64,000 nucleotides of DNA from Gemmatimonadaceae bacterium (lineage in GTDB: Bacteria; Gemmatimonadota; Gemmatimonadetes; Gemmatimonadales; Gemmatimonadaceae): NCBI GenBank assembly GCA_020846935.1, contig JADLCY010000002.1:248001-312000 (forward strand). Reading direction: 5' to 3'. Below the pieces are notes generated by a model. The model did no database searches. It worked only from the letters and a program-made list of their open reading frames with translations, and was not told the origin of the DNA. Each line of letters starts with the position of its first letter. Position 1 is the stretch's first letter. This document shows positions 21,255 through 37,934 of this stretch, one piece after another. Made by a program: the position numbers and the translations under genes.

Positions 21255-24200
21255 TCAGTCCCCGTGCTGGGGAACCAGGTCCCCCGGGACGGCGTGCTCC
21301 GCGGTCTTCTGTGACACGTTGAAACCCAGGCGACGCGAAAACCACGTACGCATGTCGTCAAGGATTTCGTAGAACGTCGGGATCGCGATGAGCGTCAGCA
21401 GCGTGGACGTGATGACGCCGCCGATGACCGCCACGCCCAGCGGGGCGCGGAACTGCGAGCCCTCGCCGCGACCCAGCGCCGTCGGCACCATACCGGCGAT
21501 CAGCGCGAAGGTGGTCATGAGGATTGGCCGCAACCGGATCGCTCCCGCCTCGATCAGGGCGTCACGAAGGGACTTGCCGTCCTTTTCGCGCGCCCATTTG
21601 GCGAAGTCGATCAGGAGGATCGCGTTCTTGGCCACGATACCCATCAGCAGGATCACGCCGATGAGGCTCATGATGTTGATCGTGTTCCGCGAGAGGGACA
21701 GCGCGAGGAACACTCCAATGAGCGACAGCGGGAGCGAGAGCATGATCGCCAGCGGATCGAGGAACGACCCGAACTGCATGACCAGGATCAGGTACATGAG
21801 CCCCACCGCAATGCCGAGCGCGATGAAGATCTGAGAGAACACCTCGGCCTGCTGCTCGGCCTCGCCGCCGGTGGTCACCCGGACGCCTTCGGGCTTCGTC
21901 AGGCTCTGCAGCGTGGCCATGGCATCGTTCGTCACCTCGCCCATCGAGCGGCCCGAGGTGTTGAACTCCACGTTGACCACGCGATCGCGGTTGAGGTGGT
22001 TGATCACCGCCGGTCCCACGCCTTCGGTGATCGTGGCGACCTGGCCCAGGGGCATGGTGCTCGGCGCTCCGTCGGGGCCCTGCACGACGAGCGGCAGGTT
22101 GCGCAGGTCCGTCGAGCGACGCCGCGCTTCGGGTGAGAGGCGCACGACCACGTCGCGCATCTCGCCACTGGGATCCTGCCAGTCACCGGCGTCGATTCCT
22201 GCAAAGGCCGGCCGCAACGCCTGGGCGATCTGCCCCACGGTAACGCCAACGCTGCCGGCAAGTCCGCGGTTCAGCTCCACGTTGAGCTCCGGCCGCTGCC
22301 CCTTGGACGACAGGCCCACGTCGACCGCGCCGCGCACCTTGCGCACCTCGGTCAGCGCGGACTGCGCAAAGGCGTTCAGTTCGTCAGTGTTGGTGCCGCG
22401 CAGCTGGATCATCACCTGCTTGCGGCCACCACCCCAATCGGTGGCAAACACTGACACCGTCGCGCCGCCAACCGCGGCCAGATCGTCACGCAGCATGGTG
22501 GCAAACGGCTCCACCGTCATGCTGCGCTCCTCTTTGCCCACGAGCTTGACGTACAGCCGACCGATGTCCACCGCGCCGGCGTCGCCGCCACCCAGGGTCG
22601 TATAGATGTAGAGCACCTCAGGGTGCTGCATCACGCGACGTGCCACTTCCTCGGACTTGAGTCGTGTGTAGTCCAGGTTCGAGCCGGGTGGCGTTTCCAC
22701 GTTGATGTTGAGTTCCGCGTTGTCGTCCTCGGGGAAGAAACCAAACCCGACGTTCATGAACTGCGGCACGATCGGCAGAAGCACCACGGGAACCGCGATG
22801 CCCGCGGCCACCGCACCCAGCTTGATGAGTCGCGAACGAAACATGGTGAGTCCGGCCACCGCGATCGCGATGCCGAGAAACACGACGCCGATGCCGAGCA
22901 GGCCCTTGGGTAGCAGCACGAACGAGCCGAGGAACGTGCCGAGCGACATGATCACCACGGCGAGCCGGTGGTCCAGCGCCCACGCGATGACGCGCTTGTA
23001 GCGCTGCGCCATGCGGTTGAACCAGGCGTTGAACCGATCGAGGGTCTTTGTGATCACGCCCTTCTCGTGCTCGGCGCGATGCGGATCGGGCCAATACGCC
23101 GAGAGCATGGGGTCGAGCGAAAACGAGACGAAGAGCGAGACCGCCACCGAGCACGCCATGGTGAGCGCGAAGGGCCCCATCCACTGTCGAGTCACACCGT
23201 ATACAAAGCCGATCGGAATGAACACCGCGAGGATCGAAAACGTCGTCGCCGCCACGGCCAACCCGATCTCCGAGGTGCCCTCCCGTGCCGCCGTGTAGTG
23301 GTCTTTCCCCATCTCCACGTGCCTGACGATGTTCTCGCGAACCACGATGGCATCATCGATCAGGATGCCGATCGCCAGCGAGAGGCCGAGCAGGGACATC
23401 GTCTCCAGCTTGTATCCGAGGGCGTAGACCGCGATGAACGAGGCCAGCACCGAGACGGGCAGCGCCAGGCCGGTGATGACCGTGGATCGCCACGAGTTGA
23501 GGAAGACGAACACCACGAGCACGGTGAGCAGGGCGCCCTCGAGCAACGCCTCCTCCACGTTGAGCACCGAGTTGCGCACGTTGACGCCGCTGTTCTTCAC
23601 GACGTCGATCGTCGTGCCGGCGGGCAGCGTGGTCCTGAGACGTTCGATGCGCTGGAGGATCTGGTCGCTCACCTCGGTCGTGCTGTATCCGCTGGCCTTC
23701 TTGATGTCGAGGCCGACGGCTTCGCGGCTGCCTGGGTCCTCCCGCTTCTGCCACAGGGCCATCGTGCGCGGCTCTTCGGTCGCATCGATGATGTCCGCGA
23801 CCTGGCTGAGCCGAATGAGGTTGCCGTTTCGCTCGGCGACCACGATCTGACCAAACTCATCGGGGCGCTCGAGGCGGCCCTTGAGCCGGATCGCGCGCTC
23901 GTCCTGCACGCCGTTCACACGGCCCACCGGAGCCGCGAGGTTCTGCAGTTGTAGCGCCTGCACCACTTGCGACACCGCAATGCCCGCGCTCTGCAGCGCC
24001 TCCGGCCGGATCTGCACCGTGAGTTCGCGCTCCACCTTGCCCGGGACGCTCACTTCGGCGACGCCCGGTATCGAGCGCAGTTCACGCGTGATGTGCGGAT
24101 CGACCAGGCGCGTGAGCTGACCCGACGACAGGTTCACCGACGACACGGCCAGCGACACGATCGGCCGATCCGTGTCGTTGAACTTCTTGATGATCGGCTC

Positions 24201-24572
24201 CTCGAGCTCCGGCGGGAGGTCCTGTCGGATGCCCGAGATCGCGTCGCGGATATCCTGCGTGGCCTCCTGCAGCGGCTTCTCGAACTGGAACTCCACCATC
24301 ACCGAGGCAAAGCCGTCCTGCGCCGTGCCCATGACGCGCTTCACCCCGGCGATCGACGAAATGGCCTCTTCGACGGGATCGAGGATCTCGCGTTCCACAC
24401 CATCGGGCGACGCGCCGGGATAGACCAGCCCGACGGTCACTACCGGAGGTGCGACCTCCGGGAACTCGTCCGTCTGCAGTTTGACCAGCGCGATCGTTCC
24501 GCCCACCGCCAGCGCCAGCATGCTGACGATGGTGATGATCGGTCGCTTGATCGCAAAATCCGAAATGAACAT
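21255..24572 (-). CDS. RND efflux pump inner-membrane transporter (AcrB/HAE1 family)
   Basis: 1105 residues, inner-membrane proton-driven trimeric pump. The N-terminus is canonical (FISDFAIKRPIITIVSMLALAVGG). The proton-relay pair lies in GLSLAIGILIDDAIVVRENIV, and the relay lysine in MGIVAKNAILLIDFAKWAREKDG. The large periplasmic porter loops follow TM1 and TM7 as expected (GFGFFPEDDNAELNINVETPPGSN begins the second). The C-terminus extends into the cytoplasm. It follows the adaptor gene by 25 bases and forms a complete tripartite pump with the TolC-like and MFP genes. The substrate range cannot be told from sequence. Confidence 0.96.
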   Translation of the reverse strand: MFISDFAIKRPIITIVSMLALAVGGTIALVKLQTDEFPEVAPPVVTVGLVYPGASPDGVEREILDPVEEAISSIAGVKRVMGTAQDGFASVMVEFQFEKPLQEATQDIRDAISGIRQDLPPELEEPIIKKFNDTDRPIVSLAVSSVNLSSGQLTRLVDPHITRELRSIPGVAEVSVPGKVERELTVQIRPEALQSAGIAVSQVVQALQLQNLAAPVGRVNGVQDERAIRLKGRLERPDEFGQIVVAERNGNLIRLSQVADIIDATEEPRTMALWQKREDPGSREAVGLDIKKASGYSTTEVSDQILQRIERLRTTLPAGTTIDVVKNSGVNVRNSVLNVEEALLEGALLTVLVVFVFLNSWRSTVITGLALPVSVLASFIAVYALGYKLETMSLLGLSLAIGILIDDAIVVRENIVRHVEMGKDHYTAAREGTSEIGLAVAATTFSILAVFIPIGFVYGVTRQWMGPFALTMACSVAVSLFVSFSLDPMLSAYWPDPHRAEHEKGVITKTLDRFNAWFNRMAQRYKRVIAWALDHRLAVVIMSLGTFLGSFVLLPKGLLGIGVVFLGIAIAVAGLTMFRSRLIKLGAVAAGIAVPVVLLPIVPQFMNVGFGFFPEDDNAELNINVETPPGSNLDYTRLKSEEVARRVMQHPEVLYIYTTLGGGDAGAVDIGRLYVKLVGKEERSMTVEPFATMLRDDLAAVGGATVSVFATDWGGGRKQVMIQLRGTNTDELNAFAQSALTEVRKVRGAVDVGLSSKGQRPELNVELNRGLAGSVGVTVGQIAQALRPAFAGIDAGDWQDPSGEMRDVVVRLSPEARRRSTDLRNLPLVVQGPDGAPSTMPLGQVATITEGVGPAVINHLNRDRVVNVEFNTSGRSMGEVTNDAMATLQSLTKPEGVRVTTGGEAEQQAEVFSQIFIALGIAVGLMYLILVMQFGSFLDPLAIMLSLPLSLIGVFLALSLSRNTINIMSLIGVILLMGIVAKNAILLIDFAKWAREKDGKSLRDALIEAGAIRLRPILMTTFALIAGMVPTALGRGEGSQFRAPLGVAVIGGVITSTLLTLIAIPTFYEILDDMRTWFSRRLGFNVSQKTAEHAVPGDLVPQHGD

Positions 24573-24597
24573 GACCGGAATCCTTGCCCTGGGGGAA

Positions 24598-25758
24598 TCA
24601 GCTCTTGGGTGACGTGCTGGCCTGTGCCGCGGTCCTGGTGTCCGTTGGCGCGCTCACCTTCACGAGCGTACCGGCGGAGATGCCCTGCGCCGCGCCGACG
24701 AGCAGCGTATCGCCGGCGCTGACGCCCTGCGTGATCTCGACGCGTTCACTGTCCTCATCGCGGAGGCCGAGCTCCACCTCGACGCGCTCGACACGCCCGC
24801 CCTTGATGCGCATCACGACGGGTCGCAGCCCGCGCACGTCGACGGCCGTTGCGGCCGCGGTCAGGCCCTGGCGCTTCTCTGCCGCCACGCGCCCCTCGGC
24901 GAACAGACCGCCGACCAGCCCGCCGCGTTCGTTCGGGATCGACACGACCACGCGCACCTGACCCGTCGACGCATCGGCCTGGGGATTGATGCGGCTGATC
25001 TTTCCCTGGAACGGCTTGTCAGGATAGCCGCTCACCTTGAAGGTGACCGGAGCGCCGATGCGCAACGCCGTGAGCTGGGCGGCCGGCACCGCGCCCTCGA
25101 GCCGCATGCTCGACGGGTCGATGATCGTGAACATCGCACCACCGGGCTGCACGACGTCGCCCGCGTTGACCTGGCGCAGGCTCACGATGCCGCCGAAGGG
25201 CGCGCGCACCTGCGCATCATCGAGCTGCTTCTGCGCAAAGGTGAGGCGCGCCTTCGCATCGGCGAGCGCGGCCTGGGCCGCTTCGTGGTTGAGCTTCACG
25301 TTCTCGTACTCGCGGTCGGCGATCGCGCCCGCTTCTTTCAGTTTGGTGAACCGGTCCAGCTCGCGCTGGGCGAGGTTGAGGCTGCTCGTCGCCGTCGTGA
25401 CGGCGCCGCGCGCGGAGAGCATCTGGTCCTGTAGCGTGCGATCGTCGAGGCGGGCGAGGACCGTGCCGCGGGCCACGCGAACGCCCTGGTCGGCGTGCGT
25501 CGACAGCACCGGGCCCGAGATCTCGGCGCGCACCGTGGCCTCGCGCTCGGCGGCAAGCGTGCCGGAGATCCCCGGTCCGGACGACACCTGCTCGCGCACG
25601 ACGAGCGTGATGTTTTCCGGCCCCACGGTCATCGTCACGGGCGCGGCGCTGTCCGCGTCCTTCGCGGCAGCGTTCTCGCCACCACAGGCGGCGAGCGCGG
25701 CGCCAAGCACGGCGGCGCCGAGGAGGGAGCTGTATCGAAAGGCGGTGGTCATGGTCAT
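24598..25758 (-). CDS. RND efflux periplasmic adaptor (MFP) lipoprotein
   Basis: 386 residues. Lipobox LGAALAAC then GGE at the end of the signal peptide: lipid-anchored adaptor. Domains in order: lipoyl half-motif (VSSGPGISGTLAAEREATVRAEISGPV...GVRVARGTVLARLD), an alpha-hairpin (about 120-180), the second lipoyl half (DAQVRAPFGGIVSLRQVNAGDVVQPGGAMFTI), a beta-barrel and the membrane-proximal domain. It bridges the RND pump and the TolC channel. The ATG at 25758 lies 7 bases after the TolC-gene stop; a second in-frame ATG two codons later is also possible. Confidence 0.94.
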   Translation of the reverse strand: MTMTTAFRYSSLLGAAVLGAALAACGGENAAAKDADSAAPVTMTVGPENITLVVREQVSSGPGISGTLAAEREATVRAEISGPVLSTHADQGVRVARGTVLARLDDRTLQDQMLSARGAVTTATSSLNLAQRELDRFTKLKEAGAIADREYENVKLNHEAAQAALADAKARLTFAQKQLDDAQVRAPFGGIVSLRQVNAGDVVQPGGAMFTIIDPSSMRLEGAVPAAQLTALRIGAPVTFKVSGYPDKPFQGKISRINPQADASTGQVRVVVSIPNERGGLVGGLFAEGRVAAEKRQGLTAAATAVDVRGLRPVVMRIKGGRVERVEVELGLRDEDSERVEITQGVSAGDTLLVGAAQGISAGTLVKVSAPTDTRTAAQASTSPKS

Positions 25759-25765
25759 GGTTCCG

Positions 25766-27436
25766 TTATTGTCCCTGTGTACCCGTTGTGGTCGACGCCG
25801 TGGGAGCGCCGCGCTGCACCTGCGTTCGTGGCGCCTGCACGCCACCCGGAGCCGCACCGCCGGTCGCGCCGGCTCCCGGCATCGCTCCGGCTCCCGCCGG
25901 CGAGCCAAAGCCTGCCCCGCCAGCGCCTAACGGCAGATCCCTGAGCAGCGCCAGCCGCATGCGCGCCACCTGAACGTTCCGCGCCGAAAGCGCCCGATTG
26001 GCACGCGCCTGTTCGAGCAGCAACCGCGACTCCGACAATTCGAGCTGCGTGGACACGCCTTCGCGGAACCGGACCTCCGCGATCGTATAGGCTCTGGACG
26101 CTTCTTCGGCGGTGCCGAGGCTCGCGGCCAGGGCGGCTTCGGCCTGCTGGAGCTGCGCGACCGACTGCCGCGCGTCGAGCGCGGCGAGTTCGCGGGTCTG
26201 GTCGAGGCGTGCGCGCGCCTCGTCCAGCGAGGCCTGTGCCACCAGCTGCTCACCTCGGATGCGCCCGCCCGTGAACAGCGGGAACGACGCGCCGAGCGAC
26301 ACCGTCCAGTTGTTCACCCAGTTGCCCCAGGTCGGGATGCCGCTCGCGCCGAAGGCCACGCGACTGTACGCCGTGCTCAGGCTCACCGTCGGAATCCACC
26401 CGCTGTTCGCGATGCTCAGATCGGCTTCCTGCGCCCTGAGCCCTTCCTCGAGCTGGCGCACGGGAGCGCGCGCGCCTGCGCTCGTATCGGGCGCCGCGCC
26501 GCGCAGGGTGGTGCCGGCCACGAGCTGCACCGGCGCCATCGATTGGTCCTCGATGTCACTCGTCAGGCGCAACGGCTCGGTGTAGGGTACGTTGAGCAGC
26601 TGTTTGAGCCTCAGGTGCGCGATGTCGCGTTCTGCCTGCCGCTGGATCACGATCGGCCGCTGGTTGTCGCGCGTGACTCTCGCCCGCAGCAGTTCGAACT
26701 CCGACTGGTTGCCGACCTGTCGCGCGACCGTCGTCTGTCGCAGCGTGCCTTCGGTCTGCGCCAGCGACGACTCGGCGATGGCCACCAGACGCTCCGCGAG
26801 CACGGCATCGAAGTAGGCCTCCGTCACCGAGAGCGCCATCTGTGCGCGCTGCGCAGAGAGTTCGATGTCTGCCGACCGACGGCCGGCGCGTGCGGCCCGG
26901 TTCTGTGCCTGCACGCGCCCGCCAGAATACAGCGTGAGCGATCCGTTGGCGGCCAGCTGGTACTGGTTCTTCGCGCCAAAGCCGGCGCGGGAGAAGTCGA
27001 GGCCTCCGCCACTGGACGAGCAGCGCGCGTACGCCTCGAGGCCCTGCACGCGTTGCGCCTCGCTCGCTCCGCCCGGCGCCAGGTACCGCGTGCACGGCTG
27101 GAAGTACGACGTTGTGTCCATCGGCGGCACCGGCGGCGCCGTGGGTGGTACCACCGGTGGGTCCGTCTGAAAGACGGAAAACTGCGTGGCCAGCGTGCGC
27201 GAGTATCCGGCCGAGCCGTTGAGCTGCGGGAGGTACTGGGAACGCGCCTGCATCAATTGTCCGTCGGCACGACGCACGCCGGCCTGAGCGATGCGCACGG
27301 CCTCGCTCTGTGACTCGGCGAGGCGCAACGCCTCTTCGAGGGAGAGGGCGCGGCCGGACTGGGCGCCGGCGCCCGACGCGAGCAACGTCACGGCACCGGC
27401 CGCGGCCGCGGCGAGCAGTCTTTGATATGAAGTCAT
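25766..27436 (-). CDS. TolC-family outer-membrane efflux protein
   Basis: 556 residues with a signal peptide (LLAAAAAGAVTLLASGAGA, then QSGRALSLEEALRLA). Two repeats of the outer-membrane-efflux domain are visible: first SLEEALRLAESQSEAVRIA to LSVTEAYFDAVLAERLVAIAESSLAQTEG, second from LRAQEADLSIANSGWIPTVSL through the FPLFTGGRIRGE box. An insertion rich in Pro and containing a Cys pair (about 85-130) is unusual. The C-terminal tail is low-complexity Gly/Ala/Pro. It forms the outer-membrane duct of the adjacent RND pump. It starts 34 bases after the tetR stop. Confidence 0.93.
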   Translation of the reverse strand: MTSYQRLLAAAAAGAVTLLASGAGAQSGRALSLEEALRLAESQSEAVRIAQAGVRRADGQLMQARSQYLPQLNGSAGYSRTLATQFSVFQTDPPVVPPTAPPVPPMDTTSYFQPCTRYLAPGGASEAQRVQGLEAYARCSSSGGGLDFSRAGFGAKNQYQLAANGSLTLYSGGRVQAQNRAARAGRRSADIELSAQRAQMALSVTEAYFDAVLAERLVAIAESSLAQTEGTLRQTTVARQVGNQSEFELLRARVTRDNQRPIVIQRQAERDIAHLRLKQLLNVPYTEPLRLTSDIEDQSMAPVQLVAGTTLRGAAPDTSAGARAPVRQLEEGLRAQEADLSIANSGWIPTVSLSTAYSRVAFGASGIPTWGNWVNNWTVSLGASFPLFTGGRIRGEQLVAQASLDEARARLDQTRELAALDARQSVAQLQQAEAALAASLGTAEEASRAYTIAEVRFREGVSTQLELSESRLLLEQARANRALSARNVQVARMRLALLRDLPLGAGGAGFGSPAGAGAMPGAGATGGAAPGGVQAPRTQVQRGAPTASTTTGTQGQ

Positions 27437-27470
27437 GGATCTCGGGTGGTGTAAGCGAACCGGCGTGGCG

Positions 27471-28124
27471 TCAGGTCGACCTGGCACGCGCCACCGACCT
27501 GCGGCGCCGGGGCCTCGTCGACGGTGTTGCGCCCAACATTTTGAGAAAGAGCTGTACGTACTTGCGTGCTGCGCGCTCCGGAGGCGACGGATATGCGGTC
27601 GGCACGACCTCGCGACCCAGCGCGTCGGCGAACAGCGCCGACGAGAGCATCGTGCATGCGGTGCGCGTCTCCTCGCGCTCGGCCGCGTTCGTCGGCTGTC
27701 GCACACGCGTGGCGTACGACACCAACTGGTTGAAATACGGTGTCTTGGCGTCGCACACGAACTCGCTCATCTCCGGGTGCTCCTCGAGTTCGGCCATCGT
27801 CTTGCGGATCAGGTGTCGGATCTGGCGCATCCCGAGCAAGTGCGCCTCGGCCCAGGTCACCAACTCGGCCTCGACATCGCTCCCGGGTCGGGCCGGCAGC
27901 GCGGCTCGAAGCGTCGGGTGTACGCACTCGAACGCCTCGCTCATGAGCTGCGACTTGGAGCCAAACAATCGAAAGAGTGTGACTTCGTTGACGCCTGCGG
28001 CCTCCGCAATGCGGCGCGTCGTCGCGCCGCGAAACCCGGCCTCGGCAAACACCGCCGCAGCCGCCTCGAGCAATCGCTGGCGGCTCTCCGGTGGCGCGGC
28101 AGGCCGTAACGCTTCCCTGGTCAT
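27471..28124 (-). CDS. TetR/AcrR-family transcriptional repressor
   Basis: 217 residues. N-terminal HTH: SRQRLLEAAAAVFAEAGFRGATTRRIAEAAGVNEVTLFRLFGSK (about 16-60), a textbook TetR DNA-binding region; the C-terminal helices form the ligand pocket. It is the first gene of the tetR-tolC-mfp-rnd operon and presumably represses it until an inducer binds. I chose the ATG at 28124; a TTG at 28193 in the same frame would add a basic 23-residue extension. A promoter with an overlapping inverted repeat lies upstream. Confidence 0.92.
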   Translation of the reverse strand: MTREALRPAAPPESRQRLLEAAAAVFAEAGFRGATTRRIAEAAGVNEVTLFRLFGSKSQLMSEAFECVHPTLRAALPARPGSDVEAELVTWAEAHLLGMRQIRHLIRKTMAELEEHPEMSEFVCDAKTPYFNQLVSYATRVRQPTNAAEREETRTACTMLSSALFADALGREVVPTAYPSPPERAARKYVQLFLKMLGATPSTRPRRRRSVARARST

Positions 28125-28214
28125 CTCGTGTCCATCGTCCTTCGTGGTGTCCTGTTGCTTCGACGCGCGTCGTCGCCGCGCCTCGCTCAACAAGCCCTGA
28201 ACAGCGGGGGTGAA

Positions 28215-28279: not shown

Positions 28280-28720
28280 AGTTTCGTCATCGTGGAGGCT
28301 CCATCAGACGGCCTTCACACATACCTGTCGAACAGAACGGCGCTCGTTCGACATCGACGGGCGGATCGTACGCGACCTCTGGCTGCGCTCCGGCTCGCCA
28401 CCGCGTTGCGACGCGGCCAACACGTCCGTCATTCTGTCGCCTGGGTGCGCAGCGGCAACGACGTAGGATGAGGATCGCGTGGAGCGGGATGAACCGAGGT
28501 GCCAGGTCGGGTTCTCCGAGGTGACCGTTCGCTGGCGCACACTCGCCAACCCGTTGCCCGGCAGGGAGTTGGCCATCGCCTTCGCCCCTGCACGGCTCGC
28601 GTCACGGGGCTCGGCACTCAAGCCCGGCGATTAGCGGCCGACCCTTTTGTGAGCCAGGACACGACGGCACCGGTCCTGCATAGCACAGGAGTCACAGGAC
28701 GCAACACTCCCACGGACGGT
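28280..28720. other. Non-coding stretch between tetR operon and pilin gene
   Basis: About 440 bases without a convincing gene. It includes a 7-bp inverted repeat GTCGAAC/GTTCGAC (28327-28333 and 28346-28352) and must hold the pilin promoter. The reading frames present have codon use and composition unlike the neighbours. Confidence 0.45.
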
Positions 28721-29143
28721 ATGATCATGTCGCGCAACAGCCGGGGCTTCACGTTCGCCGAGATCCTGGTGGCCATGGTGGTGTTTGGCGCACTCACGGC
28801 CATCGCCGTCCCTCGCTATCGCACGTTCAAGGAACGCGCGTTCATCGCGTCCATGAAGACCGACCTCGGTTCGCTGCGCGTGGCCGAAGAAGCGTTCTGG
28901 GCCGAGCACATGACGTATTCGGCAGACACGGCCCAACTCGACTGGAACGGCTCTTCACTCGTGAACGTCTCCATCACGAGCGGGGACTTCAACCACGGCT
29001 TTGCGGCACTCGCGACGCACGCCAGCGCCCCGAGCATGACGTGCCAGACGTTCGTCGGACGTGAAGCGACCACGACCGCGTCCGGCGATATCATCTGCAG
29101 CCCGGCTGCTGGCCTCCCACCCGGGAGCGCGCTCACGCCGTAG
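28721..29143 (+). CDS. Type IV pilin-like protein (class III signal)
   Basis: 140 residues. The leader SRNSRG is followed by FTFAEILVAMVVFGALTAIAVP. Gly is at -1, Phe at +1 and Glu at +5 of the predicted prepilin-peptidase site, and the hydrophobic spine is typical of pilins and type II pseudopilins. The globular part has a C-terminal cysteine pair (MTCQTF... and IICSPAA), likely a disulfide loop. No pil or gsp genes are in the window, so it is an orphan. The ATG at 28721 is used; the ATG at 28727 (MSRN) is equally possible. Confidence 0.88.
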   Translation: MIMSRNSRGFTFAEILVAMVVFGALTAIAVPRYRTFKERAFIASMKTDLGSLRVAEEAFWAEHMTYSADTAQLDWNGSSLVNVSITSGDFNHGFAALATHASAPSMTCQTFVGREATTTASGDIICSPAAGLPPGSALTP

Positions 29144-29168
29144 GTTGGCCTTCCCCCTCGGGTCCCTC

Positions 29169-29194
29169 GCGCCCCGGCCTCACCGCCGGGGCGC
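29169..29194. terminator. Terminator hairpin after the pilin gene
   Basis: Perfect 10-bp stem GCGCCCCGGC (29169-29178) / GCCGGGGCGC (29185-29194), with a 6-base loop, 25 bases after the pilin stop. There is no long T-run. Confidence 0.6.
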
Positions 29195-29248
29195 TGTCGT
29201 CTGGCGACGGGTTAGCTTCAGCGATCGCTTCGACGCGGCCCAACCTTC

Positions 29249-29803
29249 GTGGACGTTCATTTCCGGCTCGCCCGCCCTGACGATGTCGATGCGCTCAACG
29301 CGCTGATCCACGTCTCCGCCGAGGCGCTCAGCCAGGGCTTCTACACGCCCGAAGAGATCGACGCGGCCAACCGGTACGTGTTTGGCGTGGACACCACGCT
29401 CGTTGACGACAGGACGTACTTCATCGGCGAATGCGACGGTCGACCGGTCGCGTGTGGAGGCTGGAGCCGACGCGGTGCTCTGTACGGAGGCGACCAACGA
29501 CGCATGGACGCCGCGCCGGTGCTCGACCCGGCACACGACCCGGCGCGCATCCGCGCGTTTTTCGTACACCCGGACTTTGCACGACGCGGCCTGGGTCGCC
29601 GACTCCTCGAGTTGTGCAGCGACGCCGCGCGCGCCGAGGGATATCAGGCGCTCGAACTCATGGCCACGCTCCCCGGCGTACCGCTGTACGCCGCCGCCGG
29701 ATTCGCGGAAATTGCCGCGGTGCGTGATCGCATGCCTAACGGCGTCGAGGTGCGCTTCGTCCGCATGCAGCGCGCGCTCCCGCCGGTTGCTCCCCCGTCC
29801 TGA
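29249..29803 (+). CDS. GNAT-family N-acetyltransferase
   Basis: 184 residues. The N-terminus MDVHFRLARPDDVDALNALI is a typical GNAT start. IRAFFVHPDFARRGLGRRLLELC (about 101-123) is motif A, with the acetyl-CoA pyrophosphate loop RRGLGRR. LMATLPGVPLYAAAGF is motif B. It transfers an acetyl group to an unidentified amine. GTG start at 29249; no strong ribosome-binding site. The acyltransferase gene begins 6 bases after its stop, so it heads a compact operon. Confidence 0.88.
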   Translation: MDVHFRLARPDDVDALNALIHVSAEALSQGFYTPEEIDAANRYVFGVDTTLVDDRTYFIGECDGRPVACGGWSRRGALYGGDQRRMDAAPVLDPAHDPARIRAFFVHPDFARRGLGRRLLELCSDAARAEGYQALELMATLPGVPLYAAAGFAEIAAVRDRMPNGVEVRFVRMQRALPPVAPPS

Positions 29804-29809
29804 ACGTCC

Positions 29810-30676
29810 GTGCTGCCGTCTGCCGCCCTGGTTCGAGCTGCCGTGTCCGCGGCGCGCTGGATGCCGCCCCCGCTTTTTCGCGCGCTTGGCACACTCGCGG
29901 GTTCCGTGGGGTGGCTCGTGGCGGCGCGTCGCCGGCGCACGATCCGGAAGAATCTCGCGCACCTGACCGCGGGAAACGGCACAGCATCGCGCCACCACGG
30001 ATCCGCGAAAGTCTTCCGTCAACTCTTCGAAGACGCATCGGACCTGTTTCGCCTGCCGGCGCTTTCCCGCACAGCGATCCTCGACCTCGTCGAGACCAAG
30101 GGACTGGACGAGCTCCGCCGCGCGCAGGCATCGGGTCGAGGCGTGATCGTCGTGACACCGCACCTCGGTCCGTACGAGCTGGGGGGCGCCGTGCTCGCAC
30201 TCCTTGGCTTCGCCGTCCACGGCCTGGTCGAGGACATCGATCCCGACACCAACGCCGCGCTGGCGGCGTATCGTGCAGCCACGGGCCTGCAGCTCCTGTC
30301 GCGGAACACCGGCCTGCGACAGCTGTACCGCCTGCTGACCCAAGGGAGCATCGTGCTACTGGTGGCAGATCGAATGGTTGGAGGGGGTGAGGGACTCGTG
30401 GTCCCGTTCGGCGATGCGGCTCGCGAGGTTCCGACCGGGCCGGCCGCGTTTGCGCTTGCCACGGGCGCCCCGATTGTTCCGGGATACATCGTGCGCGGGC
30501 CGCGTGGAGCGCCCCGCTATGTTCTTCACGTGGATCCGGCCATCGAGCCCGATGGACACACCAAAGAGTCGCTGACGCGCCTGGTCGCATCGCGCCTGGA
30601 AACCTTCATTCGCGCACACCCCGACCAGTGGTACGTCTTTCAACCGGACTGGCGCGCCCGTGACGGTCGTCCCTGA
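29810..30676 (+). CDS. LpxL/HtrB-type lysophospholipid (lipid A or PIM-like) acyltransferase
   Basis: 288 residues, membrane-associated acyl-CoA/ACP-dependent acyltransferase. The catalytic box is TPHLGPYELGG (about 115-125), equivalent to the HxxxxE motif. IVLLVADRMVGGGEGLVVPFGDAAREVPTGPAAFALATGAPIVPGY follows the LpxL/PatA pattern of the second conserved block. The first 30 residues include a hydrophobic anchor. It could acylate lipid A or, given the neighbouring PimA-like transferase, a glycolipid as PatA does. GTG start at 29810; its end overlaps the MFS gene by 17 bases. Confidence 0.85.
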   Translation: MLPSAALVRAAVSAARWMPPPLFRALGTLAGSVGWLVAARRRRTIRKNLAHLTAGNGTASRHHGSAKVFRQLFEDASDLFRLPALSRTAILDLVETKGLDELRRAQASGRGVIVVTPHLGPYELGGAVLALLGFAVHGLVEDIDPDTNAALAAYRAATGLQLLSRNTGLRQLYRLLTQGSIVLLVADRMVGGGEGLVVPFGDAAREVPTGPAAFALATGAPIVPGYIVRGPRGAPRYVLHVDPAIEPDGHTKESLTRLVASRLETFIRAHPDQWYVFQPDWRARDGRP

Positions 30677-32000
30677 CGCACGCGTGGTGTCGTCGGCGAC
30701 ACCGACGCTCAGCGCCGTGCTGCGCCGGCCTGCCTTCCTGCTCCTCGTCGCGGGACAGACGCTTTCGCAGTTTGGCGACAAGCTGCACCACATGGCCCTG
30801 ATCGCGCTCGTTGGCAGCGGCGCGCGCGCCGACACGGGGGGCATCGAACTCGCCAAACTGTCGGTCGTCTTCACCGCGCCCGTCGTGCTCTTTGGCCCGC
30901 TCGCCGGAGCGCTGGTCGACCGGTGGAACAAGCGCGTAACCATGATCGTCTGCGACGCGCTGCGCGCGATCCTCGTGTTGGCCATGCCCGCCCTGTACCT
31001 CCGAACCGGCCACCTCTGGTCGGTGTACGTCGCCGCGTTCTTCGTCTTCCTGCTTGGCCTGTTCTTCAACAGCGCGAAGATGGCGCTCATTCCGGATCTG
31101 GTGCAGCGCGACGAACTGCTGCCGGCCAACGCCGCACTCACGTCGATTGGCCGCGTCGCCACGGTCGTGGGGATCGTGGGCGGAGGCATCATCCTCGGCG
31201 CCGACGTCTGGACGCAGTTTGGATGGACGTCATGGGCTGCGGGCTTCTACCTCGATTCCGCGTCCTTTGTGGCGTCGGTCATCACCCTGCTCGGCATCCT
31301 CGCGGTCGCGCAGGCGAAGGGAAACGGTGTGCGCCCGGTCGCACCGCGCGAAACGGTGAAACGAAGTCCCCGACACCTCGTACAGGAAGTTCGGGAGACG
31401 ATACGGGTCGTAGGTCGCACCCCAGGCCTTCGCTTCGCGTTCACCTCGCTCGTACTGCTCGCACTCTTCGCCAGCACGGTGTACGTCGCGATGACGCTTT
31501 CGGTGCAAACGGTGATGGGGCGCGGCACCGAGGGCGTGGGGTACCTGGGCGGCCTGCTGGCCGCAGGAATGGTCGTGGGTTCCCTGACGGTGGGGAGTGT
31601 GGGAAGCCGCTGGCGGAGGGAGCAGCTCATTGTGTGGGGCACGTGCGCCATTGGGCTGCTGATGATCGGCGCGGGGGTGTGGTTTTCGTTCCGGGCCTTC
31701 GTTCCGGTCGCCCTGGTTGGCGGAGCGTTGCTCGCGCCGGTCATGGTGGCGCAGGACACATTGCTGCACGAACATGCGCCGGCCGAGAGCCGCGCCGTGA
31801 TCTTCTCCACAAAGGACCTCCTGGTGGCAGCAGTCTTCGCCGCCTCGGCGTTCATCGTTGGCGGCGGGATCTATCTTTCGGGAACCTTTGGGGTACGAGA
31901 GCCGTTCCGATGGGCACTCGGACTCGTTGGTGCGACCATCGCGGTCATTGCCCTCGCGGTCGAAGGCTGGAGCCTTCGCCGGAGGCCCTCGCAGGTGTAA
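30660..32000 (+). CDS. MFS transporter
   Basis: 446 residues with about 12 hydrophobic segments. It starts with RRPAFLLLVAGQTLSQFGDKLHHMALIALV, similar to lysophospholipid or drug MFS carriers (MFS_3/LplT-like). The family loop between TM2 and TM3 reads LAGALVDRWNKRVTMIVCDALRA (GxxxDRxxRR-type). A basic cytoplasmic loop separates the halves. The gene overlaps the acyltransferase gene by 17 bases (GTG at 30660), which recalls the LplT-Aas partnership, but the substrate is inferred, not shown. Confidence 0.85.
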   Translation: MTVVPDARVVSSATPTLSAVLRRPAFLLLVAGQTLSQFGDKLHHMALIALVGSGARADTGGIELAKLSVVFTAPVVLFGPLAGALVDRWNKRVTMIVCDALRAILVLAMPALYLRTGHLWSVYVAAFFVFLLGLFFNSAKMALIPDLVQRDELLPANAALTSIGRVATVVGIVGGGIILGADVWTQFGWTSWAAGFYLDSASFVASVITLLGILAVAQAKGNGVRPVAPRETVKRSPRHLVQEVRETIRVVGRTPGLRFAFTSLVLLALFASTVYVAMTLSVQTVMGRGTEGVGYLGGLLAAGMVVGSLTVGSVGSRWRREQLIVWGTCAIGLLMIGAGVWFSFRAFVPVALVGGALLAPVMVAQDTLLHEHAPAESRAVIFSTKDLLVAAVFAASAFIVGGGIYLSGTFGVREPFRWALGLVGATIAVIALAVEGWSLRRRPSQV

Positions 32001-32051
32001 GGCACGAACCTCGGCTCAAACTCCTGCCACGAGACACGGATCAAAGGCGGC

Positions 32052-33287
32052 ATGCGCATCGTCCAGATCTCGCCCTATAGTTGGGATGCGCCTGGGGGTG
32101 TCCAGGTGCATATCGGCCAGCTCTCGCATCACCTGCGCGAGCGCGGCCACGACGTGATCGTGCTCGCCCCGGGTGATGCACCCGGCTTTCGCGAGGGCGC
32201 CCGGATCGTGGGCCGCCCGTACCCGGTGCGGGTGAACGGTTCGGTGGCCCGGCTCTGCTTCTCGCGCCGCAGTTCGCGTGTCGTGCGCAAGGCGCTCGAG
32301 GTTTTCACGCCGGACATCATCCACGTCCACGACCCGCTGACACCGAGCACGTCGATGCTTGGGGTGCTGCACCGCAATGCCCCGGTCGTTGCCACGTTCC
32401 ATTCGTATTTTGCGCGCGATCACTTCGAGGGCCGCGTCTACTCGGCCATCGCGCCGCTTCTCCGTCCGGTGTGGCGCAAGGTCGATCGGCGGCTTGCCGT
32501 GAGCACCGCCGCGCGGCACTCCGTGTGTTCGCGCATGGGTGACGATCCCGTGGAGATCGTGCCGAACGGTGCAGACGTCGATGTGTTCGCGTCTGCTGCT
32601 CCGGCAAACTTGCCGCCCGGGCGACACCTGCTGTTCGTGGGGCGTCTGGAGCCACGGAAGGGATTTCCCGTGGCGGTGCAGGCGTTCGCGCAGCTCGCGC
32701 CGCGCTATCCGGACCTGCAACTGGTGGTCGTCGGCGACGGCGCGGAACGCGACGCGATCACTGGCCTTCCGGCCGAGGTGCGCGGCCGCGTGCACATGAT
32801 GGGGCGCGTGTCGTACGAAGCACTGCCCACGTACCACAAGGCCGCCGACATCTTCATCAGTCCGGCGACGGGCAGCGAGAGCTTTGGAATTGTGCTGGTC
32901 GAGGCGATGGCCGCGGGCCTGCCGCTCGTGGCGAGCGACATCGCGGGCTACCGCGAAGTGGCTCGCGACGGTCGCGAGGGGTTGCTCGTGCGACCGTCCG
33001 ACCCCCAGGCCCTGGCCGCGGGTGTGCAACGACTGCTCGACGAGCCGACGCTCGCCCGATCGTTAGGCGCTGGCGGCGCCACGCGCGCGCGTGCCTTTGG
33101 ATGGGACCGGATCATCGACCGCCTCGAAACGGTGTACGACTCGCTGATGATCCGGGAGCGCCGGCCCGTCTCGGTGGAAGTGTCGCGCCCCCTCACTCCG
33201 GTGGTCGACGGCGCCGGCGAGCCACGGCTCGGCGCGATCGTCGACGGCCGGAGTGCGCCGGAGTGGGTCGGCGGCGGAAGTCGTTAG
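32052..33287 (+). CDS. GT4 glycosyltransferase, PimA-like
   Basis: 411 residues, GT-B fold. The N-terminus MRIVQISPYSWDAPGGVQVHIGQLSHHLRERGHDVIVLAP follows the PimA (phosphatidyl-inositol alpha-mannosyltransferase) pattern. VNGSVARLCFSRR, PVVATFHSYFAR, IVPNGADVDVF, LLFVGRLEPRKGF and GSESFGIVLVEAMAAGLPLVASDIAGYREV also match it; the last contains the sugar-nucleotide EX7E. The C-terminal 40 residues are low-complexity. It should transfer a sugar from GDP- or UDP-sugar to a lipid or saccharide at the inner membrane face. It ends 9 bases before the convergent PimB-like gene. Confidence 0.88.
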   Translation: MRIVQISPYSWDAPGGVQVHIGQLSHHLRERGHDVIVLAPGDAPGFREGARIVGRPYPVRVNGSVARLCFSRRSSRVVRKALEVFTPDIIHVHDPLTPSTSMLGVLHRNAPVVATFHSYFARDHFEGRVYSAIAPLLRPVWRKVDRRLAVSTAARHSVCSRMGDDPVEIVPNGADVDVFASAAPANLPPGRHLLFVGRLEPRKGFPVAVQAFAQLAPRYPDLQLVVVGDGAERDAITGLPAEVRGRVHMMGRVSYEALPTYHKAADIFISPATGSESFGIVLVEAMAAGLPLVASDIAGYREVARDGREGLLVRPSDPQALAAGVQRLLDEPTLARSLGAGGATRARAFGWDRIIDRLETVYDSLMIRERRPVSVEVSRPLTPVVDGAGEPRLGAIVDGRSAPEWVGGGSR

Positions 33288-33296
33288 GCCTCCGGC

Positions 33297-34424
33297 TCAC
33301 CGCGGACGCGCGACGGCCTCGGCGATCAAGCAGCCCAGGCGCGCCGCCATCACGTCCCAGCTCCACTCGGCGTGTACCCACGCCGCCCCGGTGGCGCCCA
33401 TGCGCTCGCGGCGGTCGCGATCCGCGAGCAGTTCGATGACGGCGTCGCCCACCGGGCCGGGCGCGTCCGGCTCGACCACGAGGCCGGTGTCGCCGTGTCG
33501 CACCGCCTCGGGCGCGCCTCCCGACCGTCCGGCGATCACCGGCCGACCGACCGCGGCGCCCTGCAGAAACACGGCGCCAAGCGCTTCCACGTCAAAGCCA
33601 AACCACCGCGAACGGCACGGCATCGCAAAGACATCGCCGGCACGAAAGTAGGCCGGGAGTTCGGCGTACGGCACGGCGCCAGAAAACACGACGTCGCCTG
33701 CCACACCCTCGCGGGCCGCGAGCGCGCGCAACGCCTCGTCGTGAGGCCCGTGCCCAACGATCAGCAGCTTCGCCCCGGGAACCGCCGCGCACACCGCGGA
33801 CCACGCGCGGATCAGCATGTCCTGCCCCTTGCGAGCCACGAGACGCGAGACGCAGCTCACCACGGGCGCGTCGCCCAACGCGTGCCGCTCGCGCACCAGG
33901 GCGTCGGAGACCCCGGGATGGAAGTGCGCGGTATCGATCCCCGACGGGAGGAGCGGCATGCGCCCTCGCCAGCCAAATGCCGGCTCGAGGCGCGCGCGCG
34001 CCCACGCGCTCACCGCCGTGAGCAGCGAGGCACGGTGCCCGACATGGCGCAGCACTCCGGGGACGATCGCACCGGTCAGCTCCAGGCCGTGCGCAAACCC
34101 GCCGTACGGAATACCGAAGCGGCGCACGATGCCAGGACCCAGGTGGCCCAGCGGCCACGCCGCGCCAAAGAGCACCAGATCGGGGCGTCGCGCGGCGAGC
34201 AGGTCGTGCAGCGCGCGCCGCACGCCGGGCACCGGCAGCATCATCTCGGTCGGCAGGCGGATCACCTCGTGAGGATAGGTCCGATCGAACGCCTCGGCGC
34301 CCGCGTAGTTCGACGTGAACACGGTCACCTGATGTGCCGGCAGTCGGCGCACCAGACGGTCCACGTAGTCGTTGATCCCGCCGATCCGCGGCGGAAAATC
34401 GTTGGTGACGACGAAGATCTGCAC
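33297..34424 (-). CDS. GT4 glycosyltransferase, PimB-prime-like
   Basis: 375 residues, GT-B fold. N-terminus QIFVVTNDFPPRIGGINDYVDRLV, then LFGAAWPLGHLGP, LPSGIDTAHFHPG and SRLVARKGQDMLI. The C-terminal block is CRSRWFGFDVEALGAVFLQ followed by AAVGRPVIAGRSGGAPEAV. From memory these match mycobacterial PimB-prime (second mannosyltransferase of PIM synthesis) motif by motif. GTG start at 34424, 14 bases after the CHAD-CYTH stop, so it is the last gene of a sixA / CHAD-CYTH / GT operon. Donor and acceptor are unproven. Confidence 0.88.
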   Translation of the reverse strand: MQIFVVTNDFPPRIGGINDYVDRLVRRLPAHQVTVFTSNYAGAEAFDRTYPHEVIRLPTEMMLPVPGVRRALHDLLAARRPDLVLFGAAWPLGHLGPGIVRRFGIPYGGFAHGLELTGAIVPGVLRHVGHRASLLTAVSAWARARLEPAFGWRGRMPLLPSGIDTAHFHPGVSDALVRERHALGDAPVVSCVSRLVARKGQDMLIRAWSAVCAAVPGAKLLIVGHGPHDEALRALAAREGVAGDVVFSGAVPYAELPAYFRAGDVFAMPCRSRWFGFDVEALGAVFLQGAAVGRPVIAGRSGGAPEAVRHGDTGLVVEPDAPGPVGDAVIELLADRDRRERMGATGAAWVHAEWSWDVMAARLGCLIAEAVARPR

Positions 34425-34438
34425 GATGATACCGTTGC

Positions 34439-35893
34439 CTAACGGGCGAGGTTGGCGTTCACGTACTCCGGCTCTCCCGTCACGTCACGCACGAGCACCG
34501 GAGCAAGCCACGCCGGGATCTCCACCGGCTCATCGACGCTCGCCAGTTCGATCTCGGCGAGCACGAGATCGCGGTCAGTGAACTCGTCGACTTCCCAGAA
34601 CCGCTGCCCCTCGGCCACGCGATGCCTTCGCTTGCGTACGCGGCGACCGGTGGTGAGCGGCCACATCGCCGCGAAGATCTCCGGCGTGGTCGCCTCCTCC
34701 AGCTCCACGCGGGCCACCCCACGGCCCGACTTCACCGTGCGAAACCAGGTCTCTCCGTCCGGTGTGACCACGCGCCGCAGTCGCTCGACGAGTCGCTCGC
34801 CAGGGACGTAGCCCTGTTCGATCTCCCACACCTCGGCGCGCGGCATCGACGGAGGAACTCGCGACAGCAGGTACTTCCGCTCGATCTCCACACCGCCCGC
34901 CCTGTGTGCATCGAGGATCTCAGCCACGTCCTCGACGGCGGCGAAGAAGGTGTCGCGCGCATCAGTGGACCATCGCGACGCCCACGCCGCAAACGCGTCG
35001 CGCGTCTCATGCAGCAGACGCTCGGTGAGCGCCTCGACTCCCGGTTGCACGTCAGGTGGGGAACGCCTCGCGCGCCGTGCGCCTCCCTCATCGACCGACG
35101 CAGCCCCCCGCAGAGCGCGTTCGACGCGCGCGCGCTCGGCGTGCGTGTGCAGGTGGTGGCTCCAGACATGGGCATCGTGCAAACCACCCAGAGCGTCCTG
35201 CATGGCCTTGAGCGCCGAGATCAACGCGGGCGCACCCGTAACCCACGGCGTCACTGGTTCGATCAGGTAGCGCAGACGCTTGCCGGCGATCCGCGCGCGA
35301 TGAATGGCCGCGTCGTCGGCCGACTCGTGTATTCGCTCCAGTCGACGCCGAAACACCGTGGCGTGTGAGCGGACAGCGGTCGCCATGGCGGTGGTGAACG
35401 GCACCTCGCGCGGCCCGTCTTCGACATGGTGCGCCACGCGGTACCAGGTCATCGCTTCCCGCAGTTCATTCACCGCGCCCTCGAATGCGGCGATCGATGC
35501 CGCGTCGAGCGTGGCGCCATCGCGCCGACCTTCATCGACGGCAGCCATCACCCAGCGGATGCCCGGCCGGTGGCGCCGCTGGGCCCGGGGGAGCGTCGTT
35601 TCGAGCCAGGCATGAAACACTTCGGCATCGCGACGTCCGCTCGTCGAACGCGCCACGCGGCGCAGCGTGCGCACGGCCCGAGGTGGACCGCCGCGACCGA
35701 GCACCTCGCGCCAGGCGCGGAGCCAGCTGCGCAGCCGGCGCACGGCCACGCGGAAGTCGTGCAGGGCCTCGTTGTCGCCCGGCATGTCGAGCCGTGTTCG
35801 TGCCGCGGCAGCGTCGGCCAGCATGGCGAGCGCCACCAGGCGGATGCCTCGCGGTTCTGCGGTATCGAGCAACGACGCCGGGAGCTCTCGCAC
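34439..35893 (-). CDS. CHAD-CYTH protein (CHAD N-terminal, CYTH C-terminal)
   Basis: 484 residues. Residues 1-310 are a CHAD domain, a helical bundle with conserved His/Arg (LHDFRVAVRRLRSWLRAW, AAIHRARIAGKRLRYLIEP, LGGLHDAHV) that binds polyphosphate. Residues 335-484 are a CYTH domain with the ExExK signature EIERKYLL (336-343) and basic strands (GERLVERLRRV, WFRTVKSG), a triphosphate tunnel fold. Common fusions have CYTH first; here the order is reversed. GTG start at 35893 directly abuts the sixA stop codon, so translation is coupled. Likely role: inorganic polyphosphate or triphosphate metabolism. Cytoplasmic. Confidence 0.9.
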   Translation of the reverse strand: MRELPASLLDTAEPRGIRLVALAMLADAAAARTRLDMPGDNEALHDFRVAVRRLRSWLRAWREVLGRGGPPRAVRTLRRVARSTSGRRDAEVFHAWLETTLPRAQRRHRPGIRWVMAAVDEGRRDGATLDAASIAAFEGAVNELREAMTWYRVAHHVEDGPREVPFTTAMATAVRSHATVFRRRLERIHESADDAAIHRARIAGKRLRYLIEPVTPWVTGAPALISALKAMQDALGGLHDAHVWSHHLHTHAERARVERALRGAASVDEGGARRARRSPPDVQPGVEALTERLLHETRDAFAAWASRWSTDARDTFFAAVEDVAEILDAHRAGGVEIERKYLLSRVPPSMPRAEVWEIEQGYVPGERLVERLRRVVTPDGETWFRTVKSGRGVARVELEEATTPEIFAAMWPLTTGRRVRKRRHRVAEGQRFWEVDEFTDRDLVLAEIELASVDEPVEIPAWLAPVLVRDVTGEPEYVNANLAR

Positions 35894-36400
35894 CTATTCA
35901 CCCAGCCGACGAAGCTGAGCCGGCGCCATGGCCCAGACGAGGGTTGCAGCCCCCGAGGTCACCTGACCTGGAAAGTCGAGGAGGAGCGCGCCGCCCTTCT
36001 TGAACGCCACGGCCGGATCCTCCATCCCGGTCATGAGCCACGTCACCAGCGAGCCAAGGTAGGGCTCATGCCCGACGATCGCGACGATCTCGTGTTCATC
36101 GTGCGACGCCAGCCAGGGAAGGAAGTCGCGAATGGGCCGTGACGGACGCAGCTCGTCGATCTCCCACGTGCGCGAGAGCTGATACTCCTCGGCGAGAATC
36201 GCGGCCGTCTGCGTCGAGCGCGTGAGGGGACTGCACGCGAGGCGGGAGATCGACGGAAGGACGCGACGCAATCCGCGAGCGCTGCGTTTCATCTTCTCGC
36301 GACCCTTGTCGGTGAGTGGGCGTTCTTCATCGGTCGCGCTGCGCCTGGCGAAATCGGCGCGCTCCTCGGCAATGGCGTGACGCACGACGAGCAGCTGCAC
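35894..36400 (-). CDS. sixA: Phosphohistidine phosphatase SixA family
   Basis: 168 residues, histidine-phosphatase superfamily. LLVVRHAIAEERADF contains the RHA/RHG catalytic box; SPLTRSTQTAAILAEEY is the second conserved arginine region; AIVGHEPYLGSLVTWLMTG supplies the second histidine. It removes phosphate from phosphohistidine proteins or other phosphomonoesters. GTG at 36400 is chosen because AGGAG lies five bases upstream. The stop codon is immediately followed by the GTG of the CHAD-CYTH gene, a pairing that fits phosphate metabolism. Confidence 0.9.
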   Translation of the reverse strand: MQLLVVRHAIAEERADFARRSATDEERPLTDKGREKMKRSARGLRRVLPSISRLACSPLTRSTQTAAILAEEYQLSRTWEIDELRPSRPIRDFLPWLASHDEHEIVAIVGHEPYLGSLVTWLMTGMEDPAVAFKKGGALLLDFPGQVTSGAATLVWAMAPAQLRRLGE

Positions 36401-36503
36401 ACAAACTCCTGGGAATGGGTGGGTGCGCGCTGACGGGCGCCGCGGGCGGCAATCTACACGGGACGGAGCGGCGGCGCGGGCTTCCCGTCGCTCGTTAGGT
36501 GGG

Positions 36504-37934
36504 CTACTTGAGGCCCACCTGTCCCTTGACGGACGCCACCAGCTTCGCGGCATCGTACCCGATCCCGAGGCGGAAGGTCGTGACCACGTTGCGGATGTCT
36601 CCGGGGTTCTGTGCCGGGTTGCCGCGGAGGACGACGAGGTCCGCCTGCTTGCCGGCGGCGATCGACCCGGTGCGTCCGTCGATGCCGAGTACCCTGGCGC
36701 CGTTGAGCGTCATCACCTGCACGGCTTCGGCGGGCGCGAGTCCCGCCTCGACGAGCAACTCGTAGTTGCGCTGGTCGCCGTACCCGGCGATGACGTGGAG
36801 GCAACACGGGTCGGAGCCCGCCGCCAGGAGCCCTCCGGCGCGCATGAAGGCCACCTCAAAGGCCATCGTCTTGCGAAGCACGTCTCTGGCCACACGGTCA
36901 TTGGCGGTGGCGGCGTTGTCGTACCAACGGCCAACGGCCGCCGCGGCCTCGGGCATGAGTGCGTCGAGCACGCGCTGGTCCTTCTGCAATCGCGACGGGG
37001 TGCTGGTCTCGTACACGGCCAGCGTCGAGGTGAGCGATACCTTGCGATCGACCATCTCCCGGATGGTGCGTTGCACGTCCGGGTTGGAGACGTCGGCCGA
37101 AGCGAAGATCGCGGAGTCCCCCGCGGAGGGGCAGGCGTCGGGCTGCTTGTTGGCGTAGAACTCGGTATTCGCGAACAGCCCGTGCTCCAGGTTGTCGATA
37201 CCAAGAGCGACCGCCTCGCGATAGCCCACGGAGCACAAGTGCGCGGTCACCTTCACTCCGTGCTTGTGTGCCTCGTCGATCGCGGCGCCGAGGGCGGCGC
37301 GCGAGACCTGCGTGTAGGCCTTGAACCAGGTGACGCCCTCCTCGGCCCAGTACTTCACCATGCGGCGGGCGTCGTCAGGGCCGTCGACCGGGTGCATTGC
37401 CCCGGGGCCCGGGCCGGGCCCCTGCAGATACGGGCCGGTCACGAACATCTCCGGCCCCACCATGAGCCCGCGCGTGATCGCGTTCCGGACGTTGATCTCC
37501 TGGTACGAGTCGGTACTCCCGGCCGTGCGCACCGTGGTGATCCCGGCGCCAAGAAACAGCCGGGGATAGCTCTGCAGCATCATCTTCATCGAGCCGCCTG
37601 CTGCAGAGCTGTAGTACATGTGGTCGTGCAACCCGACGATGCCGGGGATGACCGTATGGCCCGAGAGATCGATCACGCGGGCATTCCCCGGGATCGTGAC
37701 GCTGCCCATGGGACCGGTGGCGCGGATGCGCTCGCCCTCGATGAGGACCACCTGGTTCTCCCTCGGCGCCGCGCCCGTGCCATCGATCACACGCACGTTG
37801 GTGAGGGCCACGATCGGCGCGTCGACCGAGACGAACGTGCGAACCTGTGGCGAGAGCTGACGTTCCTGCGCCGTGACGAGGGCCGGCACGCAGGCGAACG
37901 CCGCGACGAATCGGAGGAGCGCTGAGGTCTTCAT
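36504..37934 (-). CDS. Secreted amidohydrolase (imidazolonepropionase-like)
   Basis: 476 residues with a signal peptide (LLRFVAAFACVPALVTA, then QERQ), so probably periplasmic. Metal-dependent amidohydrolase: VIPGIVGLHDHMYY (HxH), a lysine in WFKAYTQ, His in VTAHLCS and NLEHGLF, and Asp in LLAAGSDPCC. The C-terminal LNGARVLGIDGRTGSIAAGKQADLVVL is standard. Family members hydrolyse cyclic amides or dipeptides (Xaa-Pro type); the substrate here is unknown. It starts 85 bases after the multicopper oxidase stop on the same strand. Confidence 0.9.
   Translation of the reverse strand: MKTSALLRFVAAFACVPALVTAQERQLSPQVRTFVSVDAPIVALTNVRVIDGTGAAPRENQVVLIEGERIRATGPMGSVTIPGNARVIDLSGHTVIPGIVGLHDHMYYSSAAGGSMKMMLQSYPRLFLGAGITTVRTAGSTDSYQEINVRNAITRGLMVGPEMFVTGPYLQGPGPGPGAMHPVDGPDDARRMVKYWAEEGVTWFKAYTQVSRAALGAAIDEAHKHGVKVTAHLCSVGYREAVALGIDNLEHGLFANTEFYANKQPDACPSAGDSAIFASADVSNPDVQRTIREMVDRKVSLTSTLAVYETSTPSRLQKDQRVLDALMPEAAAAVGRWYDNAATANDRVARDVLRKTMAFEVAFMRAGGLLAAGSDPCCLHVIAGYGDQRNYELLVEAGLAPAEAVQVMTLNGARVLGIDGRTGSIAAGKQADLVVLRGNPAQNPGDIRNVVTTFRLGIGYDAAKLVASVKGQVGLK

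Follow-up and report, generated by a model that had tools for sequence, protein, structure and literature searches.

Genes resembling those of early phosphatidylinositol mannoside synthesis in a lipid A-bearing member of the Gemmatimonadaceae

A cassette of four genes in a lipid A-bearing Gemmatimonadaceae bacterium probably encodes the first steps in the making of phosphatidylinositol mannosides (PIMs), those at the cytoplasmic face. PIMs are regarded as an actinobacterial hallmark and are the anchors of LM and LAM; mycobacteria cannot do without two of their transferases, PimA and PimB'. A literature search found no paper on PIMs or PI in Gemmatimonadota. Our reading draws on orthology and the keeping of catalytic residues, on the linkage and co-occurrence of the genes, and on precursor genes in the same genome; from these we infer the substrates, the order of steps, the site of acylation, and transport.

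The window, by which we mean the whole 64,000-nucleotide stretch of DNA that was analysed, belongs to a 4.5 Mb genome with an estimated completeness of 100%, and the closest homologues were found in records labelled Gemmatimonadetes or Gemmatimonadaceae. An LpxC gene (304 bits) is present in this genome, so the organism is a Gram-negative (diderm) of the lipid A type, in keeping with the outer membrane that the first-pass annotation had ascribed to it. The cassette and the gene preceding it are laid out as follows:

29249-29803, + strand: GNAT acetyltransferase (open reading frame call), ending 6 bases 5' of the PatA-like gene
29810-30676, + strand: PatA-like acyltransferase of the Lip_A_acyltrans fold, proposed to acylate PIM1 or PIM2 (PDB, NCBIfam, AF2)
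30660-32000, + strand: MFS transporter, a candidate lipid flippase or exporter (position; weak LplT-type likeness)
32052-33287, + strand: PimA-type GT4, the proposed PI alpha-mannosyltransferase, GDP-Man to PI (PDB, tree, residues, AF2)
33297-34424, - strand: PimB'-type GT4, proposed to add an alpha-(1-6)-linked mannose to PIM1 or Ac1PIM1 (PDB, tree, residues; E298Q)

The start of the MFS gene overlaps the end of the acyltransferase gene by 17 bases, and the PimA-like and PimB'-like genes do converge, as first described, across a gap of 9 bases (GCCTCCGGC). The coordinates of all five reading frames stood as originally given; the placing of the GNAT gene in the operon did not. That gene adjoins the cassette in the closest relative (L103) only and is absent from the other five neighbourhoods; being not conserved, it was dropped from the conserved unit and is probably a mere neighbour. 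No sigma-70-type promoter was found in positions 28900-36600, and terminator-like matches in the same interval were at chance level.

The genes on either side were read from the sequence as well. On the 5' side lie a type IV pilin-like protein (28499-29143, + strand; N-terminal motif GFTFAEILVAMVVFG), with pilin-like reading frames also 5' of the cassette in three relatives, and, farther out (21255-28193, - strand), a cluster whose reading frames look like an RND efflux pump, a membrane fusion protein, a TolC-like protein, and a regulator of the TetR type. On the other side (34439-36553, - strand) are a CHAD-domain protein, its C-terminal part CYTH-like by eye, and then a SixA-like phosphatase. 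This pair, which possibly has a link to polyphosphate, adjoins the cassette in most relatives too.

The best PDB match of the 32052-33287 protein was M. smegmatis PimA (2gej/4n9w; E 2e-66, 228 bits, residues 1-365, 37% identity), as compared to 101 bits for the next family. The likeness to PimA first noted in its motifs holds over the full length of the protein, and profile and structure comparison placed it with PimA, not with capsule or LPS GT4 families. The window protein, like all the cassette copies that were aligned, keeps residues Y9, G16, N63, S65, H118, R196, K202, E274, and E282 of PimA; in PimA structures these are catalytic and acceptor residues, of the inositol and GDP-Man sites. 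The basic patch R77/K78/K80/K81 varies in part in the window protein. PimA was also the first match of an AF2 model; the AF2 input alignments contained actinobacterial sequences and the models are supporting evidence only. In the tree, cassette PimA and two actinobacterial MAG proteins formed a single clade (100/99), outside the group of mycobacterial and streptomycete PimA, and its deeper branching relative to classical PimA and the other gemmatimonad GT4 clade was weakly supported (85/67).

The PimB' likeness of the 33297-34424 protein held up as well. Its full-length best match in the PDB was C. glutamicum PimB' (3okc; E 1e-78, 268 bits, 43% identity), again not a capsule or LPS GT4 family, and MshA followed at 81 bits. 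The tree united it with actinobacterial PimB' (100/99), apart from other GT4s of the phylum, and its nearest outside relative was a protein from an actinobacterial MAG (52% identity). The active-site residues D13, H118, R206, K211, and E290 were kept. The second Glu of the EX7E motif, E298 in C. glutamicum numbering, is Glu in all sampled actinobacterial PimB' and Gln in all Gemmatimonadaceae copies; we therefore call the protein PimB'-type, not a strict member by the EX7E feature, and count the substitution against the PIM reading.

With orthologues defined by at least 60% identity for PimA and at least 65% for PimB', the two occurred in an identical set of 6 of the 150 Gemmatimonadota genomes sampled. 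Under independence the probability of this by chance is ~7e-11, a value made too small by shared ancestry. In one of these genomes (G101) PimA and PimB' sit on different contigs, so linkage alone is insufficient to explain their co-occurrence. The order PatA-MFS-PimA was kept in all six (the host and five sampled relatives), with PimB' convergent after PimA in five. As a control for the PatA link, ~75 actinobacterial PimA loci were inspected; most have the order PIPS-PatA-PimA.

A PIM pathway would need an inositol lipid and GDP-mannose. The first-pass annotation saw no phosphatidylinositol synthase in the window; a search of the genome for PI and inositol lipid genes located a PIP synthase (PIPS) elsewhere in it (C6), adjoining an inositol-1-phosphate synthase (Ino1). 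The host encodes four CDP-alcohol phosphatidyltransferases, of which, from reading frames and neighbours, one is PgsA-like (C11), one PssA-like and next to a Psd-like gene (C14), and one another member of the family (C15). The fourth (C6:217797-218513) had PIP synthases as its best solved relatives (92 bits) and PIPSynth as its best NCBIfam model (149 bits, under the cut-off of 170). It carries DX2DGX2AR...GX3DX3D, given as the PIP synthase motif (PMC9246714), and keeps R153 and R191 (RsPIPS numbering) at their exact spacing of 38 residues; both are described as absolutely conserved in PIP synthases and missing in eukaryotic PI synthases (PMC4634129). Ino1 (PF01658, 116.7 bits against a cut-off of 27) starts ~33 bases 3' of the PIP synthase, the pair spanning G000:C6:217797-219883. 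PIPS and Ino1 lie close by on one contig in all six cassette genomes, host included, and matches were widespread in the sampled Gemmatimonadota (PIPS in 142 and Ino1 in 138 of 150 genomes), a reason to look for inositol phospholipids throughout the phylum. Two mannose-1-phosphate guanylyltransferase-like genes in the host (240 and 185 bits to TIGR01479) make a supply of GDP-mannose plausible.

GT4 enzymes switch donor and acceptor readily; Rv0557, originally named 'PimB', proved to be MgtA, acting on GlcA-diacylglycerol (PMC3229680). The two transferases might then build a lipid that is PIM-like and not identical, either PI or another inositol lipid bearing a sugar other than mannose, or a different anionic lipid (e.g. 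PG or glucuronosyl-diacylglycerol) that is mannosylated. The modest identity to M. smegmatis PimA and the E298Q change in PimB' would fit such a product. So would the lipids of two cultured relatives: PE, DPG, an aminolipid, and, in Gaopeijia only, PG are the major polar lipids listed for Gemmatimonas groenlandica and Gaopeijia, and PI is not among them (PMC7844134, PMC11651109). We count this, too, against the PIM reading, bearing in mind that TLC can miss minor lipids and that these strains may not carry the cassette. On balance we judge a PIM-like lipid of this kind unlikely, given that the PimA residues presumed to bind inositol and GDP-Man (the Y9 to E282 set) are all kept, that the strict co-occurrence of PimA and PimB' together with the PatA linkage matches the PIM set, and that PIPS and Ino1 accompany the cassette in every genome that has it.

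The acyltransferase was at first described both as LpxL-type and as PatA-like, and of these descriptions the second is favoured. By sequence, the protein is closer to PatA than to LpxL or LpxM: PatA was its best PDB match (64 bits), ahead of LpxM (29 bits), and a profile of seven gemmatimonad copies widened the difference (100 and 43 bits). Chance would not come near the matches of the three enzymes to PimA, PimB', and PatA. Among NCBIfam models PRK07920 (PIM acyltransferase) came first, whether the query was the window protein or the seven-copy set, PatA was the best match of the AF2 model, and the C-terminus bears a WxxFQPxW block as in PatA. Against the NCBIfam PatA model the window protein scored 124 bits, under the curated cut-off of 209, and is accordingly named PatA-like only. 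It keeps the catalytic His, E149, R164, and, as Asp, the acid of block 3; its HX4E motif is HX4D in PatA, and a Tyr occupies the position of H284, which contacts PIM in PatA. The sub-cut-off score and these two differences also weigh against the PIM reading. The two sequence differences, which set it apart from actinobacterial PatA, would suit a lipid A enzyme of the LpxL/LpxM type that merely adjoins the mannosyltransferases, and the PatA/LpxL tree, being unrooted and with no neutral outgroup, does not discriminate between descent from either side. We nevertheless find a lipid A enzyme improbable, in view of the PDB and NCBIfam results, the linkage of the acyltransferase to PimA in six of six genomes, and the separate LpxL-type gene that the genome has of its own at C1:114133. 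In the cassette clade the MFS gene always lies between PatA and PimA. Its product is similar to TIGR00900 (137 bits) and less so to lysophospholipid transporters of the LplT type; no close solved relative was found.

Other GT4 proteins of the phylum were set apart from the cassette enzymes. Twenty-four PimA-like proteins of other Gemmatimonadota (L029-L052), first considered as PimA, form a separate clade (100/100) of mostly 33-40% identity, found in many Gemmatimonadota without the cassette; three checked members keep H118 and E282, lack E274, with which the EX7E motif opens, and carry N in place of K202. Nor was a PimB'-like GT4 of the host (C1:115050) retained as PimB', at 27% identity to C. 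glutamicum PimB' and with N for H118. A second LpxL-type acyltransferase adjoins this distant PimB'-like gene (G000:C1:114133-116165, L201); the group is widespread in the phylum, and loci L093, L100, L227, and L228 have the same LpxL-type neighbour. That the cassette GT4s are ordinary envelope enzymes (capsule, LPS core, exopolysaccharide) with a superficial likeness to PIM transferases, as the roughly dozen other GT4 proteins in the host and an NCBIfam scan with no PIM transferase model over cut-off might suggest, is very improbable and was rejected on PDB gaps to the next family of >120 bits (PimA) and >180 bits (PimB'), on trees that split both proteins from the host's own GT4 paralogues and the 33-40% clades of the phylum, and on the K202 and E274 residues that the checked PimA-like members of those clades lack.

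The mycobacterial route to Ac1PIM2 runs through PimA, PimB', and the acyltransferase at the cytoplasmic face (PMC3229680). The PIM-like glycolipid pathway suggested by the first-pass annotation finds support in the genes, and the predicted lipid would arise as follows. Ino1 would form inositol-1-phosphate, which the PIP synthase would join to CDP-DAG to give PIP; a putative phosphatase would convert PIP to PI. The PimA-type protein (32052-33287) would add the first mannose from GDP-mannose and the PimB'-type protein (33297-34424) the second, and the PatA-like protein (29810-30676) would acylate the mannosylated product. The MFS protein (30660-32000) is the candidate transporter, which would carry the lipid across the inner membrane to its outer face. 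An acylated phosphatidylinositol mono- or dimannoside on the inner membrane would best explain these genes. PF09594 (GT87, the PimE family) was not found in the host genome, with a positive control in C. glutamicum; the pathway thus probably stops at PIM2 or Ac1PIM2, and long mannans are less likely.

A Gram-negative bacterium with PimA and PimB', its own supply of inositol lipid, and no sign of GT87 would offer a PIM system that is minimal by nature, with the pathway on view in a cell that has neither mycolic acids nor LAM, and a mannose-decorated class of inositol lipids may occur far outside its known home. A 2011 review named the PIM flippases only as unidentified (PMC3229680), and the cassette MFS protein offers a concrete transporter candidate for this step. 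We advance only tentatively, as possible and somewhat doubtful, the full proposal that acylated phosphatidylinositol dimannoside is a product of an outer-membrane, lipid A-bearing lineage, which transports it by a dedicated MFS flippase; if true, PIMs would be no actinobacterial speciality, and a candidate PIM flippase could be read from a four-gene cassette.

Judged by its genes, the system would be a known pathway in a new form, and in a phylum where it was not expected. The Bacteroides inositol lipid cluster (BT_1522-1526) is likewise that of a Gram-negative with MIPS and PIPS genes; its route ends in PI and phosphoinositol dihydroceramide, and the text of that paper does not mention mannosides, unlike the proposal here (PMC9246714). 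PatA (Rv2611c; 5f2t, 5oce) and the window acyltransferase share a fold, a C-terminal WxxxQPxW block, and linkage to PimA, at ~25% identity, and differ in the HX4E motif and Y284 of the window protein. PimA (Rv2610c and its M. smegmatis counterpart) is, like the window protein, a full-length GT4 with the same catalytic and inositol-site residues and an adjoining PatA-type gene; the difference lies in the host, which belongs to a lipid A-making Gram-negative phylum. PimB' (Rv2188c; C. glutamicum, 3okc, 3oka) has the same five active-site residues as the window copy and differs from it at E298. In M. tuberculosis, Rv2188c and Rv2610c are far apart, whereas here PimB' is the convergent neighbour of PimA. 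The actinobacterial PIPS-PatA-PimA operon links PatA and PimA in the same order as the cassette but includes PIPS, which in the gemmatimonads lies beside Ino1, away from the cassette; the gemmatimonad cassette, for its part, has an MFS gene between PatA and PimA and usually PimB' at its end.
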